Source of the DNA: Bacteroidia bacterium
GTDB taxonomy: Bacteria; Bacteroidota; Bacteroidia; NS11-12g; UBA9320
Direction: 5' to 3'
Assembly (NCBI GenBank): GCA_020849295.1
Contig: JADLGN010000055.1
Location: forward strand, 1-64,000
DNA length: 64,000 nucleotides
Numbering within the stretch: the stretch's first letter is position 1; the number at the start of each line of letters is the position of its first letter. Position numbers and translations under genes: made by a program. The notes beneath the pieces are model-generated. The model searched no databases, had not been told where the DNA came from, and saw only the letters and a program-made list of their open reading frames with translations. Below are positions 54,306 to 64,000 of this stretch, piece after piece.

Positions 54306-57300
54306 CTATAGTAAATTTATATTGCCTTCTATTGAATATGAGTGATTATCGGCACCCATAGCTTTTATTTTATAAATATATACACCCGACTGTGCCTTTA
54401 CGCCTCTGTATTTTCCATCCCATTCTTCGTCAATATTATTTGTTTCAAACACAATTTCGCCCCATCTATTGTATATTCTGAAAGTAAAATTACGCCCTTT
54501 TAGTTCAGTATTATTCTCAACAAACAATGTTTTAACTCCTATTTTATCATTTATTTCATCGCCATTTGGAGTAAATGCATTTGCCATGTACATTTTTGAA
54601 GGTGATATAATGCATGTAATGTTTGAATAACTTGTATCCAACATATCATTTGAGATTGCCATTATTCTATAACAATAAGCTCCATGAATAATTTCTAATG
54701 TTTGATTATGATAATAAACACTGTCAATACTTGAACTTGAATAAATTGACTTAAAACTTCCATCTTTTTTAATTTGAAGGGTATAACCTTTTACTCCTGA
54801 TTTCCACGACTTGTATTTATTCCACAATGCTTGTGTAAAATAACTTGATGACGAAGCGTTTATTACTATATTTTTTCCGATTCCATCAGCAATACTTTTA
54901 TTGCCGCATTTATCAGTTTCTATTACAGAATAAATATAATAATTACTTGAAGTATTTACATCGTAATCTCTGTAATAGTTTGTATATAATTCATAGCTTT
55001 CAAGTTTGTTTGTTCCTACATTAATTCTGTTAAGAATATAATTTTTAAAATTTATATTTTTTGACGCATCCCATTTTACAGTAATTGAATTATCTTCATT
55101 CACACTTACATTTCTAATATCAGTATATTTTTGAGGAAATAATATTAGTGGATTGCTCATTTGTATATTGCTTTTGGATACTAATTCATTATTTTTTGCT
55201 TCAATGTAATAAGTATAAATTCTGTTGCATATACCTGAGTCTTTATAATTAAGTTTTGACGATTCTATTTCGCAAATTTTTGAATAATTAGGTTCATCAG
55301 CTGTTTTTCTGTAAACTATATATTTATCTACTTTATCCCATCCTATATATGGTGTCCAGTTTAGTTCAGTTACAAATGGTTTATTATTGGTAATTTGTAA
55401 AAATACTGTACAGTGTTTTTTACCGGCATTGCTTGTGTAGCCGCATATATCGTTAATTCTGTAATCAAAACAAACTGATGAATCTTTAGCAAATGTTTTA
55501 TTGTAAGTTACCTCTTCAATTTTTTTAGAAGTGGTATTATGAAAAGCCAAATTCAAATTTGTGTTGTATAAACTTGCCGATGCAAATCTTGAATAAACAA
55601 TAGGCATAGTAAAAATATTTACTGTATTATCAGAATTTACTGAAACAAAATTTATATCAGCAGATGGTATTTCGTCAGGGTTTGGTACATTAATATATTT
55701 TTTAATAGAACTCGAACAATTATTTATATCTGTAACTGTAAGTTCAATAGTATTTGCTCCTGAATTGTTAAATAAGTGAGAAACCACCGGTGTGTTATAT
55801 ACTGTTGAAATACCATCAGATTTTAATTCCCAATCAAATTTCTTTAAAATATAATTACTTTTTGTAGTATTATAAAATGTTACCAGCTTTTGTTTACATA
55901 TTGAGTCATAAGTTATAAATTCTACAATCGGATTAGGATTTACAATTATCTTTACTTTTAAACTGTCAATACACAAATTTGTATTTTCTACAAACTGTAC
56001 GAGCTCAAAATTTCCTTTTTCTTCAATTTTAAATAACTTTTCGTTTAACCTGATTTTTGACGAACCGTAAAGGTAAAACTCAGATTTGGTAATTGATTGC
56101 GAATTGTCTATATATGATATATCTTCAAATTGACAAACAACTGTATCGCTAACACTAAATGTTGACTTAGAAGTTTGTTTTACAATAATTGGTATATCGC
56201 TTACGTATTCTGCTTTACATCCAAGTGAATCTACTGCAAAAAGTACCGGAATATGTTCTTCAATTAAATTTTGTTTATTTTGAATAGTGTAAATATGTGT
56301 TCCAATTTCAGAATTAAGTTTAGTCCCGTCATCATAATTTATATAATGTGTGAATGCATCGTCAGAATTATCTATAAATATAACCGATAATGGCTCACAA
56401 CCTACATTATTAATCATTTCAAATTTTGGAGTAGGTCCAACAACATGTAAATAATCTATCTTGGTTAAAGTATCGCTACAGCCTTCATTACTCTTTGCAA
56501 TTAAAGAAACTTTATAGCCATTTTTAATCCCTGTATTTTTTCTGTAAATATTAGCTACAAATGAATCTGTTGTTGTAAAACTAACTGCATTTCCAAAATC
56601 CCATACTAATGAGTCGGCGTTTTTTGATTTTGATAAAAATTGAGCATAAACCGGCGAGCATTTTAAAATTGTATCAATTGCTTTAAAATCTGATTTTACA
56701 ATTATTGATTTAATAAACGAAAAAACCGTATCATAACATTTATCAAACTTTGAAGCAATAATTCCAACTTTATTTCTATTATCAATATTGTATTTAATAT
56801 TTATTTCATTTTGTGATAGATTATCTCCAGTAACAGCATCTTTTGTAAGAACCCATTTTATTGAAGTTGGCAATAAATACGACTTGTCTTTTAGTTGGAT
56901 AAGTTGATTAGGACAAACTATATTATCAGAAACAGTAAATTCAGCTTTTACTCCAACATAAATTGGTTGTGAAGTAATAATTTGCTTACATCCGCTGCTG
57001 TTAGTTATTTCGAGATATATAAAATATTCACCTGTTTTTGTAAATGTAATTTCAGGATATTGCGCTTTTGAGTCTGATATTATTGCATTTTCATTATATG
57101 AAGTACTCCATTTGTATTCTACTATATTACTTGGATTTTCAAAATGGAAATTATTTAAAATTATCGCTTTTGGTTTTACAGTTAGGGGAGTGCAACCATT
57201 AAATGTGTCTATTTTAAGTTCAGCACTAATTTCATTCACTTTAATAAGTTCATTGTTTATTATGCTGTCGCGACATCCTTTATTTATTTGGTGTACAAAT

Positions 57301-59159
57301 TTTAAATCGTATTCGCCTGCATTATTTATTCTCTCATCAAAAGCAGAAGTTTCTTTTGAAATTTCAATACCGTCATTTCTGTTTTTCAAATACCAGAAAT
57401 ATCTAAAATTAGCTCTTTTTGGATATGAGTTTCCAAATGCTATTAATTTTTCTCCTTTACAAAATATAGGTGATTCAATTTTATAATTAATTTTTGGAAT
57501 TACAATTTCTATCAGGTTTTCAATCTCAATTGAGTCTTTACAACCTATCCCGTTATCAGCAATCATTTTCACACTGTAAAACCCGGTATCATTATATGAA
57601 AATTTTGGCGATGATTCATTTGAATACCCTAAAATTTTGCTTTTGTTTTTATCATAAAATGTCCAAGTAAAATTATCAGGAGACTTGTAAGAACTTTTTG
57701 GAGTATTTTGTAAAAACTCTATTGTTTGTCCAATACATCCTACTCTCACATCTGCATCAAAAAGAGGCATTATTGGATTATTCCTGATATATTTATTTTG
57801 TTTAAATGTATCAACACAACCGTTTGCATGGCGTGTAATTAATACAACATCATATTCCCCTTGTTGTTTTATATTGAAAGTATCGTTAGTAATACTTGAA
57901 ATTCTTATTAGTTTATTATCTTTGAAATACTGCCATTGATATGTCATTCTCCCTGGTTCATACGCTTTTGAAGTATTTTTAAAATGTACTAAATGAGGTA
58001 ATTTGCAATGGTAATAATCAACAGAAGAAAATTTAGCTTCCACTCCTTTTACTCTAACGTAATTATTAATTGTTTTGCTAAGTTCGCATCCATTGTAATT
58101 ATATACAATTGTCAAATTAAAAATGCCTATTTTATCATATTTGGCTTTACATGAATAATTATCAGGAGTTAGAACAACTACGGCATCATTTGCAAACCAA
58201 CTAAATTTACCGGGTAGTGTTTTATCAATATTTTCAATAGTAATAAATCTTCCTTTACAAACAGTAGAATCTGAAAATTTTATTGACATTGAATCTATAT
58301 GGCCAAAAGCTAAATAATCGTATTTTACTTTTTGGTGAATACAACCTTTATCTGTTACTGCTTCAAACAAAATTGAATATTTGCCCGAATACTTATAAAT
58401 AAATGTATCAGGATTTTCAATAGTTTGCATGCTTGGTTCTGCACCCGGGCTTAGCCACTTATATGAAACTATTTTATTTCCGTTGTTATTAATGTATGGA
58501 ACTACTACTACCTTTTTACTTACACAGCCAGATGTATTATCTGCCACAAAATCAATTTGCATATCTTTATAAATTGTAACTGTAGAATCAAATTCCTTGA
58601 TTGCCTTACATCCATTATTATCTTCTACAATCATTGCAATTTTTTTAGAGCCTGTAGTACTAAACTGATGCTTCTGTTTTGCTGGGGCGTTATAGTAATT
58701 TGTCCCGTCTATTACCCAACTTCTTTTAGATGAATTTTTAGTATTGTCAAAATATGTTACTGTATCTGCACCATAGCAAAGTTTTTTACGTGAAATATAA
58801 AATTCTGGTTCTGGCTTTGAAAACACTTCAAGAAAATTATTTTTTGATATATTACAAATTTTACCGTTTGCGTATTTAATCTGTACATTTAAAGAAATTT
58901 TTCCCGGATTTTGTATATATGCATAAAATGTATCGAAGCCATTTTGATATCCTTTACCTACATCCCACAATAATTTTGAACCTGCGGGTACATTGGTAGC
59001 AACAATTTTAAATAGTGCAGGTTGACACAGCCCTACCTTAGGTGAAATTATTTCTTCATTAAAATTACATTGTGACTTTGCAAATAAATACAAAAAAGAA
59101 AACAATAAGCCAAAAATGGCTCTTTTAGAAAATCTTGTTGCAATTAGGTACAGCATCAT
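54306..59159 (-). CDS. Giant multi-PKD/Ig-like protein with fibronectin-like repeats and gliding motility-type (T9SS type B) C-terminal domain
   Basis: Many PKD-like units (DVGKGYQNGFDTFYAY..., YKWLSPGAEPSMQTIENPDTFIYKYSG...); C-terminus ANAFTPNGDEINDKIGVKTLFVENNTELKGRNFTFRIYNRWGEIVFETNNIDEEWDGKYRGVKAQSGVYIYKIKA. ATG 59159 preferred to TTG 59168. Confidence 0.88.
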   Translation of the reverse strand: MMLYLIATRFSKRAIFGLLFSFLYLFAKSQCNFNEEIISPKVGLCQPALFKIVATNVPAGSKLLWDVGKGYQNGFDTFYAYIQNPGKISLNVQIKYANGKICNISKNNFLEVFSKPEPEFYISRKKLCYGADTVTYFDNTKNSSKRSWVIDGTNYYNAPAKQKHQFSTTGSKKIAMIVEDNNGCKAIKEFDSTVTIYKDMQIDFVADNTSGCVSKKVVVVPYINNNGNKIVSYKWLSPGAEPSMQTIENPDTFIYKYSGKYSILFEAVTDKGCIHQKVKYDYLAFGHIDSMSIKFSDSTVCKGRFITIENIDKTLPGKFSWFANDAVVVLTPDNYSCKAKYDKIGIFNLTIVYNYNGCELSKTINNYVRVKGVEAKFSSVDYYHCKLPHLVHFKNTSKAYEPGRMTYQWQYFKDNKLIRISSITNDTFNIKQQGEYDVVLITRHANGCVDTFKQNKYIRNNPIMPLFDADVRVGCIGQTIEFLQNTPKSSYKSPDNFTWTFYDKNKSKILGYSNESSPKFSYNDTGFYSVKMIADNGIGCKDSIEIENLIEIVIPKINYKIESPIFCKGEKLIAFGNSYPKRANFRYFWYLKNRNDGIEISKETSAFDERINNAGEYDLKFVHQINKGCRDSIINNELIKVNEISAELKIDTFNGCTPLTVKPKAIILNNFHFENPSNIVEYKWSTSYNENAIISDSKAQYPEITFTKTGEYFIYLEITNSSGCKQIITSQPIYVGVKAEFTVSDNIVCPNQLIQLKDKSYLLPTSIKWVLTKDAVTGDNLSQNEINIKYNIDNRNKVGIIASKFDKCYDTVFSFIKSIIVKSDFKAIDTILKCSPVYAQFLSKSKNADSLVWDFGNAVSFTTTDSFVANIYRKNTGIKNGYKVSLIAKSNEGCSDTLTKIDYLHVVGPTPKFEMINNVGCEPLSVIFIDNSDDAFTHYINYDDGTKLNSEIGTHIYTIQNKQNLIEEHIPVLFAVDSLGCKAEYVSDIPIIVKQTSKSTFSVSDTVVCQFEDISYIDNSQSITKSEFYLYGSSKIRLNEKLFKIEEKGNFELVQFVENTNLCIDSLKVKIIVNPNPIVEFITYDSICKQKLVTFYNTTKSNYILKKFDWELKSDGISTVYNTPVVSHLFNNSGANTIELTVTDINNCSSSIKKYINVPNPDEIPSADINFVSVNSDNTVNIFTMPIVYSRFASASLYNTNLNLAFHNTTSKKIEEVTYNKTFAKDSSVCFDYRINDICGYTSNAGKKHCTVFLQITNNKPFVTELNWTPYIGWDKVDKYIVYRKTADEPNYSKICEIESSKLNYKDSGICNRIYTYYIEAKNNELVSKSNIQMSNPLILFPQKYTDIRNVSVNEDNSITVKWDASKNINFKNYILNRINVGTNKLESYELYTNYYRDYDVNTSSNYYIYSVIETDKCGNKSIADGIGKNIVINASSSSYFTQALWNKYKSWKSGVKGYTLQIKKDGSFKSIYSSSSIDSVYYHNQTLEIIHGAYCYRIMAISNDMLDTSYSNITCIISPSKMYMANAFTPNGDEINDKIGVKTLFVENNTELKGRNFTFRIYNRWGEIVFETNNIDEEWDGKYRGVKAQSGVYIYKIKAMGADNHSYSIEGNINLL

Positions 59160-59464
59160 ATATCTCAAATTTTATCTTAAACACTGATAAAAAAATAATA
59201 AATTGTCGGGATTATTTTTCTATCTTTTTTCCCTTTATACGTTTATTTTAATGGTATCTCCGTATGCGATTTCAATCTAAATTGTCAACTAAAAATCGAA
59301 ATCAGGGACGACAAATATACAATTATTTTTACAAAACCAAATATTTTTTAAAAATTTTTCCACTTTTTTTTAACAAAACCTATAAAATAGACATAAGTTT
59401 TTAAATCTGATATTTACTAAAATATATTGATTAATTTTACCAACTTAAAAATTCACGACTAAAA

Positions 59465-60160: not shown

Positions 60161-61192
60161 TTATTCTTCACTTTCATTCATATAAAAACGATACGAAATT
60201 CCGGTTGAAAACTGAAATTGCGATGCTATCTGAGTTTTATTCACATACTGATAAATTGGTATTTCAGAAAGTGCAAAAACAGTGTATTTACCTTTGAATG
60301 TATAGTTTAGCTGAGGTACAATAAATATTTTTTTGCTTCCTGTTGCTGCTGGGTCATAATTTGGATAATCATATAGCAAAACATTTTTATTAATTTTCAT
60401 CTTATCTATAAATTCATATTTTACCTGTGCAGTCAATCCAAGTTTATTTACTAAAGTTTTACTAGCAAAAAAGCCTACTGACATATAATTCCCTTGCTTT
60501 TCACCTAACGAATTCCAGCCTTTTTTAATATATGTAATGTTTACAAAAGATTTAAATTTTTTAAATTCTTTAAGAAAAAAACCATATAACAAAATATCAT
60601 GCGAACCCGAACTTGGCTGCACTGCAAGAGGCATAGTGATATAATATTTTTCACCTGAAAATGGTTCAACCTTTGAAAAAGAGTCGTTGTACTTTCCTAA
60701 TGGAATTTTTACACCTAAGCCAATAGTTATTTCTGTTTTTAATTTTTTCTTAGTTTTATTATAAATATCATATCGGGGAAATAAAATTATATCTCCAAAT
60801 CCGCCTGATTTAATTACCTCGTTTGTTTTATTTACACTATCATACAAACCAATTTGCTTTTTATTGATAAAATATCCAAAATCAACAGACATTGTAAATT
60901 TTTCATTTACACCATAACCAAATCTGGTAAATAAATAATTGCTGCCGAAATAATCTAAAAAATTCTTATCAGTTTTTGTCCCGGTAAGAAATTTTTTTGT
61001 TGATATATGCTGATAATTTGTATTAATTTCAAATTGATTTTCCTGTAAAACTCCTTGAGATGCACCTCCAGCCAATGGGCTTCCACTTCCCCCGGCACAG
61101 CATTGCGATAGTGATTGATTTGCATTAGTAAATATTAAAAAAAATAAACAAACCTGAAGATTGTATTTTCTAAAAAAACAAATCATCTGCAT
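60161..61192 (-). CDS. Putative outer-membrane beta-barrel protein with N-terminal CCAGGSGSPLAGGASQG motif
   Basis: Signal peptide ending NQSLSQ, then CCAGGSGSPLAGGASQGVLQENQFEINTNYQ; alternating beta strands; C-terminal aromatic strand FSTGISYRFYMNESEE. Overlaps the upstream gene by 10 bp. Confidence 0.7.
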   Translation of the reverse strand: MQMICFFRKYNLQVCLFFLIFTNANQSLSQCCAGGSGSPLAGGASQGVLQENQFEINTNYQHISTKKFLTGTKTDKNFLDYFGSNYLFTRFGYGVNEKFTMSVDFGYFINKKQIGLYDSVNKTNEVIKSGGFGDIILFPRYDIYNKTKKKLKTEITIGLGVKIPLGKYNDSFSKVEPFSGEKYYITMPLAVQPSSGSHDILLYGFFLKEFKKFKSFVNITYIKKGWNSLGEKQGNYMSVGFFASKTLVNKLGLTAQVKYEFIDKMKINKNVLLYDYPNYDPAATGSKKIFIVPQLNYTFKGKYTVFALSEIPIYQYVNKTQIASQFQFSTGISYRFYMNESEE

Positions 61193-61965
61193 ACTAATAT
61201 TTTTATAAATTTATTTGTTTTTGAATTATAGATTTTCAAAAAGTACATACCTTTTGAAAGTTCTGAAGTATTTACATCTATATTATTAGTGCCCGCATTT
61301 AAAATTTCATCTTTAATTATGGTTTTCACGTTTTTACCAAAAATATCAATTATTTCAACACTATATTTATCAGTGTTTTTTAAGTCAATTTCGATATTGG
61401 TATTTTGATTTGCAGGATTTGGATTTACAGCAACTCTTGTTATATTAAAATTCGTTTCTTTTACTGAAAGAGTTGCAGAAACAGCAGAAATCAGGGCATT
61501 TTTGAGTTTAGTAGAATTTCCTACGTTTGAGTTATTTTCATTAAAAAATACATCATGACCTTTGCCTGCTAACACTACTGCTTTTGGCATTCCATTTGAG
61601 CCGTAATCCATCATTTTTATTAGTGAATTTGAAAACCTTATTGTATTTGGCATTCCGTTGCTATTTGCCCAACTTTCTATTGATGGACATGCAGTATTTG
61701 CATAATCATCAACTATGTACATAATAATTTTTCCAGGGTATATAGTATCAAAACTTCTTACAACATTATATGCTGTTTTTGATGGAGCAATGCAGGAAGC
61801 ACAGGGCATTACCCAATCAATAACCACTACTTTGCCTGAATCTAGATTTTTGAACAAATCATGTGAATTTCCTTTACAATCATTACAAGTAAAATTTACT
61901 GCTTTTTGAGCAAAAGCATTATTTAAAAAAAATACTAAAGCGAATATTGCGATATTTCTTATCAT
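61183..61965 (-). CDS. Secreted thioredoxin-fold protein with T9SS type A sorting domain (paralog B)
   Basis: Signal peptide; CNDC; VVVIDWVMPCASCIAPSKT (thioredoxin-like strand plus CxxC); GMPKAVVLAG (cis-Pro-like); C-terminal RVAVNPNPANQNTNIEIDL...IIDIFGKNVKTI...GMYFLKIYNSKTNKFIKILVCR. Confidence 0.78.
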   Translation of the reverse strand: MIRNIAIFALVFFLNNAFAQKAVNFTCNDCKGNSHDLFKNLDSGKVVVIDWVMPCASCIAPSKTAYNVVRSFDTIYPGKIIMYIVDDYANTACPSIESWANSNGMPNTIRFSNSLIKMMDYGSNGMPKAVVLAGKGHDVFFNENNSNVGNSTKLKNALISAVSATLSVKETNFNITRVAVNPNPANQNTNIEIDLKNTDKYSVEIIDIFGKNVKTIIKDEILNAGTNNIDVNTSELSKGMYFLKIYNSKTNKFIKILVCR

Positions 61966-61967
61966 AA

Positions 61968-62741
61968 TTAATTATTGATATTTAGTTTTAAATTTTTTTC
62001 TGTTTCTATGTTGTTTACTTTTAAGATATATATATCTTTTGGTAAATTTTCACTATTTATTTCTAATTGAGATTTACTGTTTTCAATAAAAATTTTCTCT
62101 TTTACTAATTTTTCACCTGCCAAATTAAAAATTTCAATATTAAAAATTTCAGGATTGTTTATTTTAAAATTCAAATAATGTTTTTTCTCATTATTATTAT
62201 ATGTCAGATATATATTTTTAAGTGGTTTCTTCAAATTATTGTCGTTAGCTTTTCCTGTGAGTGCATCTTTAAAAGCATTTTGAAGTTTTGGAATATCTGC
62301 AGCTTCGTAATCTGTTTCATTAAAATATACAAAATGTGATTTGTTAGCAATAATTACAATTTTTGGCATACCTGGCAATCCATAATCTTCCATTTTTATT
62401 GATGTATCAGAGAACTTAATTGTATTTGGCATTCCATTATTATCTGCCCAACTTACAACTGATGGGCAATAAGTATCTGCAAGATCATCGCATATATACA
62501 TTCTTATTTTTCCAGGGAAAGAATCTTTATAGCTTTGAATAACATTATATACGGTTTTTGATGGTCCAATACACGAAATACAAGGCATTATCCAATCCAA
62601 TACAATAATGTATCCTGAATCTAATTCGTTAAAAAGATTATGTTTGTTTCCACTACAATCATTACAATTAAAATTTTTAGCATATTGAGAAAATGAATTG
62701 TTTGTAAACAAAATAAATAATATCAGAGTTATTTTTTTCAA
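61968..62741 (-). CDS. Secreted thioredoxin-fold protein with T9SS type A-like C-terminal domain (paralog A)
   Basis: Strong end-to-end similarity to 61183..61965: NFNCNDCSGNKHNLFNELDSGYIIVLDWIMPCISCIGPSKTVYNV...GMPNTIKFSDTSIKMEDYGLPGMPKIVIIA. C-terminal sorting-like region (IEIFNLAGEKLVKE...DIYILKVNNIETEKNLKL). Confidence 0.78.
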   Translation of the reverse strand: MKKITLILFILFTNNSFSQYAKNFNCNDCSGNKHNLFNELDSGYIIVLDWIMPCISCIGPSKTVYNVIQSYKDSFPGKIRMYICDDLADTYCPSVVSWADNNGMPNTIKFSDTSIKMEDYGLPGMPKIVIIANKSHFVYFNETDYEAADIPKLQNAFKDALTGKANDNNLKKPLKNIYLTYNNNEKKHYLNFKINNPEIFNIEIFNLAGEKLVKEKIFIENSKSQLEINSENLPKDIYILKVNNIETEKNLKLNINN

Positions 62742-63296: not shown

Positions 63297-64000
63297 TCAT
63301 TCATCAATTTTTACAATTCTTTTGAAGTGAATTATTTTATTTGAATCTGTTATTTTTAAAATATATGTCTCAGAACATTCTGTATCAAAATTTATTTTAT
63401 TTGTATTCTTAATATTCATAACTTTTTTACCATATATATCCAATATTTCAACTTCTTTAATTTTTATATTACCTTTTATTTCAAATTCGGTTTTAAATGG
63501 ATTGGGAAATACAGTTAATTCATCTTTTTTACTTTTAAAATCAGCTATTGCAAGTTTTATATTTATTAATGAATCTGCTTTATTTACATCTGGTATTCCA
63601 TACCCCATACTATCGTTGTAATTAGAATACAGATGGCAGCTTTTTCTCACTGCATCAAGAATTATTTGATTTGGCACTGTAGGAAATTTTTGTTTTAAGC
63701 AAGCTATCATTCCTGCAATCAAAGGTCCCGAAAACGATGTTCCGCTTCCTTTTCTTATTATATTATTTGTACCAATTATGGTTACATTACTACCCATAGC
63801 CATCACATCTGGCTTAACTCTTCCGTCAGCACTTGGTCCAAAAGATGAAAAACCTGATTTTTTCATATTTTCATCTACCGAGCCCACACATAGTACATCT
63901 TTTCCATCACAGGGAGCAATTATATGCTTCCATGATTTTTCTCCTTCATTGCCAGCACTGTTTGTAATAAATATTCCACGTTTGTAAGCCATTTGAGCAG
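63297..64000 (-). CDS. Subtilisin-like S8 peptidase with T9SS type A sorting domain (5' part beyond window)
   Basis: AQMAYKRGIFITNSAGNEG (Asn region), GPSADGRVKPDVMAMG, catalytic Ser GTSFSGPLIAGMIA; C-terminal LTVFPNPFKTEFEIKG...ILDIYGKKVMNI. Frame stays open to the window end. Confidence 0.9.
   Translation of the reverse strand, partial: AQMAYKRGIFITNSAGNEGEKSWKHIIAPCDGKDVLCVGSVDENMKKSGFSSFGPSADGRVKPDVMAMGSNVTIIGTNNIIRKGSGTSFSGPLIAGMIACLKQKFPTVPNQIILDAVRKSCHLYSNYNDSMGYGIPDVNKADSLINIKLAIADFKSKKDELTVFPNPFKTEFEIKGNIKIKEVEILDIYGKKVMNIKNTNKINFDTECSETYILKITDSNKIIHFKRIVKIDE

Follow-up and report, generated by a model that had tools for sequence, protein, structure and literature searches.

The TlpA-Sco/CoxB pathway and the Scs system are the described systems closest to the locus analyzed here. 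TlpA reduces copper-site cysteines before metal loading (PMC7558416), and the isomerase ScsC, which also has a thioredoxin fold, binds Cu(I) (PMC8900818). At the outer membrane, a genome survey of Bacteroidota and a copper review name TonB receptors, porins, CusC and PcoB for copper, and little has been described of how copper and other soft metals cross the outer membrane in this phylum or what meets them there. The known COG4313/PF13557 channels and FapF are tied to hydrophobic substrates or to amyloid export (PMC4493636, PMC5557850), and a COG4313 crystal structure shows the segment ahead of the first strand reaching into the lumen from the periplasm (PMC4493636). Our search for a characterized system that joins surface thioredoxins to an outer-membrane barrel headed by a Cys pair found none, and the literature searched on HYC_CC_PP, and on T9SS together with copper, held nothing relevant.

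The locus lies within a window of 64,000 nucleotides, the whole stretch of DNA that was analyzed, from a Bacteroidia genome. The original prediction described an operon of three genes with a 2-nt gap and a 10-bp overlap, all of which are present in the sequence at the coordinates given. The genes follow each other head to tail on the minus strand: gene 1 (62741-61968), with a TTG start codon and a product of 257 aa; gene 2 (61965-61183), with a product of 260 aa; and the barrel gene (61192-60161). The latter has a second in-frame ATG at 61186, which overlaps the upstream stop as ATGA, so that its product has 343 aa (ATG 61192) or 341 aa (ATG 61186); if ATG 61186 is the one used, the overlap with gene 2 may be 4 bp. 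The promoter-like TAnnTTTG box (TACTTTTG) that was said to precede the operon does lie on the same strand at 62761-62754, 12 nt upstream of the TTG of gene 1, but with 113 copies of the motif in the window, both strands counted, it carries little meaning alone, and we dropped it as evidence. Elsewhere in the window, a 1620-aa ORF with a TTG start on the minus strand (54306-59168) has a C-terminus resembling a gliding/T9SS (CHU_C-like) tail, and the genome G002 carries a similar gene at the same place. Positions 63297-63998 hold the 3′ part of a subtilisin-like protease gene, cut by the end of the window, with a GTSFSGP motif and a T9SS-like tail.

Genes 1 and 2 are paralogs, as had been claimed, with 55% identity in the core and 40% overall, and both contain the common motifs CNDC, MPCxSC, CPS and GMPK. 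Structure prediction and a fold search returned the thioredoxin fold that had been proposed for them. The AlphaFold2 model of the gene 2 protein, built with 28 aligned sequences, is a confident ResA/TlpA-type thioredoxin fold (pLDDT 90.6) whose helices and strands follow the thioredoxin order, and a Foldseek search of the PDB matched it to ResA, DsbE, DipZ and other TlpA-type thioredoxins with TM-scores by target of at most 0.79, the value reached by the best ResA match. In this model C55-x-x-C58 of the MPCxSC motif caps the active-site helix (residues 56-73), and P127 of GMPK, a putative cis-Pro, precedes the core strand 128-133, so both motifs sit where the original prediction had placed them. 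P127 is kept in all full-length family members except one, which has Gln (L088). The gene 1 protein has the CxxC as MPCISC and a putative cis-Pro in its own GMPK, along with additional conserved cysteines in DC and TYC and the His of KSH. The profiles of the AhpC-TSA, Redoxin and Thioredoxin families in Pfam and NCBIfam did not match either of the two proteins, and curated thioredoxin families gave weak matches in two of the 28 aligned members. Neither the thioredoxin core nor the barrel has an informative sequence relative in the PDB.

Beyond the active site, the family has cysteines of its own. All full-length members in which both columns are aligned have C30 and C93, and none of the TlpA-like outgroups does, so the two probably had a joint origin, as a pair or as a cluster. 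Of the two Cys in CNDC only the second (C30) is invariant, C93 sits in NTACPS, and H137 is nearly invariant. The sorting tails that had been noticed at the ends of both paralogs are also a property of the family, being found in 28 of 28 aligned thioredoxins. The tail of the gene 2 protein (residues 181-257) is clear, with 50.7 bits to the Pfam Por_Secre_tail profile (cut-off 27), while that of the gene 1 protein is marginal, with 26.7 bits, just under the same cut-off, and 24.0 bits to TIGR04183 (cut-off 23). The genome also encodes SprA (2385 bits), so the T9SS translocon of the host is present. Going by these tails, the paralogs are probably cell-surface proteins.

The product of the third gene was predicted to begin with a Cys pair and to continue as a barrel, and both parts were recovered. 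Its AlphaFold2 model has twelve long strands (pLDDT 80.7, pTM 0.78), and the best folds retrieved by Foldseek were the COG4313 channel 4rl8 (TM-score by target 0.76) and FapF (up to 0.77). The N-terminus contains SLSQCCAGGSGSPLAGGASQG, with a predicted mature start at Q-C-C, and the conserved segment QCCAGGSGSPLAG (residues 30-42; codons at 61105-61067, minus strand) lies at the predicted mature N-terminus. Q30, C31, C32, G35, G42, G47, V48 and L49 are invariant in the 28 aligned barrels. We found no curated match that would place the protein in a known unrelated transporter family; its fold, COG4313/FapF-like, is that of a channel class. PF13557 itself does not match the window barrel, although six of its 28 relatives match at E-values up to 0.1 and one distant relative (L123) passes the cut-off, with 24.4 against 22. 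The CopB families of Pfam and NCBIfam gave no match to the barrel at E-values up to 1. We also rejected a lipoprotein, as there is no lipobox: about half of the family has Gln immediately before the first Cys, and position −3 is not occupied by Leu, Val or Ile. Plasmid origin was rejected as well, with only two distant "transporter" matches, both in Candidatus Manganitrophus. In the barrel the QCC segment occupies the place of the segment that enters the lumen in COG4313, but residues 21-43 were modeled with low confidence (pLDDT below 50). On the analogy of that structure, the CC segment would be expected towards the periplasm or in the barrel lumen and not at the surface, which corrects the surface module of the original prediction.

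We scanned named GTDB genomes and obtained 28 barrel loci, every one of them in Bacteroidota. A thioredoxin gene lies directly upstream on the same strand in 27, in one of which (L076) it is broken. At the 28th locus (L079) the thioredoxin is not adjacent, and a full-length family member is found elsewhere in that genome, in an operon of HYC_CC_PP, thioredoxin and a protein with a heavy-metal-binding domain (HMBD, PF19335). Among 108 genomes of the order, seven have a close barrel and all seven have an adjoining thioredoxin gene; the two samples overlap, as six of the 28 named loci are from the genomes of six of these seven cases. When the phylum was sampled evenly (396 genomes), few close forms of the pair came up. 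A decayed thioredoxin copy with several stops remains in another genome from which the barrel is missing (G004:C6:60466-60851; L016, L062), an apparent joint loss of the two genes. The tandem duplication of the thioredoxin was seen only in the window genome and in one close relative (G002/L073), so that the predicted linkage holds in many genomes for a thioredoxin-barrel pair and in these two for the three-gene form. Conservation across genomes excludes chance for this observation: the pair is real, and it is uncharacterized.

The metal-handling half of the original prediction gained strength from the relatives, whose loci in Bacteroidota recur among genes for copper efflux and heavy-metal resistance. 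Their flanks contain CusA, CusB, CusC, HYC_CC_PP, HMA proteins, DUF6660, multicopper oxidases, a Csp1-type copper storage protein and small AraC-type regulators with a CopZ-like N-terminus (AraC-HMA); at L058 an HMA protein is encoded directly upstream. HYC_CC_PP was tested with the curated family NF047658, which has 67 matches in all in the 108 genomes of the order. It lies within about 5 kb of seven of 14 thioredoxin loci, against a chance of about 0.3% per locus, although the 14 loci share ancestry and are not 14 independent trials. The HMBD is found at the C-terminal end of ten of the 28 barrels, a distribution that the tree can explain with no fewer than three to four gains or losses. Metal-gene flanks were counted at 14 of 28 loci, as opposed to two of 20 random 17-kb stretches; the query genes were picked in part from the same loci and the "MCO2" of L085 is a probable T9SS-tail artefact, so the count is better taken as about 13 of 28, and only the HYC_CC_PP and HMBD counts are free of bias from the choice of queries. 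On the barrel tree the metal-flank label has to switch seven times or more, so these flanks are not one inherited event. Taking flank and barrel HMBD together, 18 of the 28 named loci have a metal sign and ten have none in the examined flanks or on the barrel. No metal gene lies near the operon within the window; the same genome has an HYC_CC_PP-CusA-CusB island on another contig, C9 (L148:7032-10194), where the CusA frame is split into two ORFs and adjoins HYC_CC_PP and two HMBD-bearing CusB genes. The AraC-type regulators, some 190 aa long and CopZ/HMA-like in their N-terminal part (L086:6493-7065, L087:6412-6984, L096:6470-7042, L147:1-414 and L128:1-380), are candidate metal sensors beside Cus genes or the module.

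Clustered cysteines also open the mature chain of distant barrels of the phylum (CSCAGAPL, ACCSAGTPLL, CGCCSAAFSG). Thioredoxin-fold genes adjoin three of these distant barrels (L123, L128 and L132) and, weakly, L125 and L126, and genes for DUF3179 adjoin nine of 13 by eye, two of these confirmed with Pfam. A list of selenoprotein families with a UxxC/T motif includes DUF3179 (PMC9312934). Because distant barrels share both the clustered cysteines and the thioredoxin or DUF3179 neighbors, the association of a Cys-headed barrel and a redox partner seems to be ancient. The Cys-headed barrels near DUF3179 (L124, L127-L134) are sometimes also close to DsbH/Trx_2-type thioredoxins. The T9SS thioredoxin family has a second clade, of NCGSCPPPA or SCxPC type (L063, L065, L066, L136, L146, L147). 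Its genes belong to long operons that lack the barrel and contain HYC_CC_PP, multicopper oxidases with T9SS tags and further T9SS-tagged proteins.

We consider it reasonably probable that the pair is a conserved envelope module that handles copper, possibly silver or other soft metals, by thiol chemistry. The fold, the co-occurrence and the metal neighbors are in line with the surface redox or metal module that had been proposed; the joint action of the proteins we infer. To what the computations show, from the folds and conserved cysteines to the sorting tails, the pairing and the metal association, we add the following proposed steps. T9SS would export the thioredoxin to the cell surface. 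Its four conserved cysteines may bind Cu(I), may maintain the barrel Cys-Cys in reduced form, much as TlpA does with copper-site cysteines, or both. The Cys-Cys segment, placed in the barrel lumen or at its periplasmic opening, would serve as a metal-binding, redox-sensitive plug, and the pair would move or neutralize excess copper at the outer membrane. Topology poses a difficulty: the membrane would separate a surface thioredoxin from a CC that, by analogy with COG4313, faces the periplasm, unless the thioredoxin gains access to the plug via the lumen or does its work prior to export. The more specific proposal, that the surface thioredoxin controls a Cys-plugged channel by thiol exchange or Cu(I) transfer, that is, a redox-gated copper conduit, we hold to be doubtful.

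The direction of the metal could also be the opposite one, with the thioredoxin reducing or metallating surface cupredoxins or multicopper oxidases while the barrel imports copper for acquisition or cuproprotein maturation. TonB receptors, MbnP and MbnH-like genes adjoin some relatives (L078-L080), the second thioredoxin clade adjoins T9SS-tagged multicopper oxidases (L066, L136, L146, L147) and BsSco is also among the Foldseek matches of the gene 2 model, but HMBD, Csp1, CusABC and HMA neighbors point more to excess metal, and the window thioredoxins carry CxxC where Sco has CxxxC, and give no match to SCO1-SenC (PF02630), which makes acquisition rather unlikely. Metal neighbors would be expected too if metal stress harms thiols and the thioredoxin is a general disulfide reductase or isomerase of surface proteins, with no contact between the module's proteins and metal, an explanation that draws on its fold and active site and on the pairing of distant barrels with ordinary ResA-like or DsbH-like thioredoxins. 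Fusion of the partner barrel to HMBD and the conservation of C30/C93 and H137 beyond the needs of a plain TlpA protein leave it distinctly improbable. Tight one-to-one adjacency, and FapF among the top structural matches of the barrel, would suit a pore dedicated to secreting or anchoring the thioredoxins, comparable to FapF for amyloid or PorV for T9SS cargo, with the metal link secondary. This we regard as very improbable: the thioredoxins already have complete T9SS type A tails and SprA is in the genome, the barrel was rejected as PorP/SprF or PorV for lack of a family match, one barrel locus has no adjacent thioredoxin, and the partners of distant barrels had no T9SS tail in our scans.

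Set against the known systems, the proposed copper-handling module shares with each of them only a part. The barrel resembles the COG4313/PF13557 channels (Pput2725, SphA, TcpY) and FapF in its 12 strands, similar length and extension before the first strand (PMC4493636, PMC5557850), and differs from them in the invariant CC, in the metal context and, in some relatives, in an optional C-terminal HMBD. PcoB/CopB is likewise an outer-membrane protein of copper clusters (PMC7558416), but it is partnered with a multicopper oxidase instead of a thioredoxin. ScsC, for suppressor of copper sensitivity, also links a thioredoxin fold to copper tolerance (PMC8900818, PMC5524982); unlike the window proteins, to which we saw no sequence match, it is a periplasmic trimeric isomerase for which no outer-membrane barrel partner is described. 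TlpA, ResA and DsbE, and the TlpA-Sco/CoxB pathway (PMC7558416), share the fold, the CxxC, the cis-Pro position, an extracytoplasmic location and copper-tied thiol chemistry, whereas the window proteins are T9SS-tagged and not membrane-anchored, have the extra C30 and C93 and are partnered with an outer-membrane barrel. The thioredoxin-barrel pair is a concrete candidate with clear cysteine targets, and a role is suggested for several unnamed families, the QCC barrel and the HYC_CC_PP neighbors. If the conduit proposal is true, Bacteroidota would have a redox-gated outer-membrane copper conduit without a described counterpart. On our best reading the module would follow a logic comparable to that of TlpA-Sco or Scs, at the outer membrane instead, and the pair would extend their periplasmic thioredoxin-copper chemistry to the T9SS-decorated cell surface.
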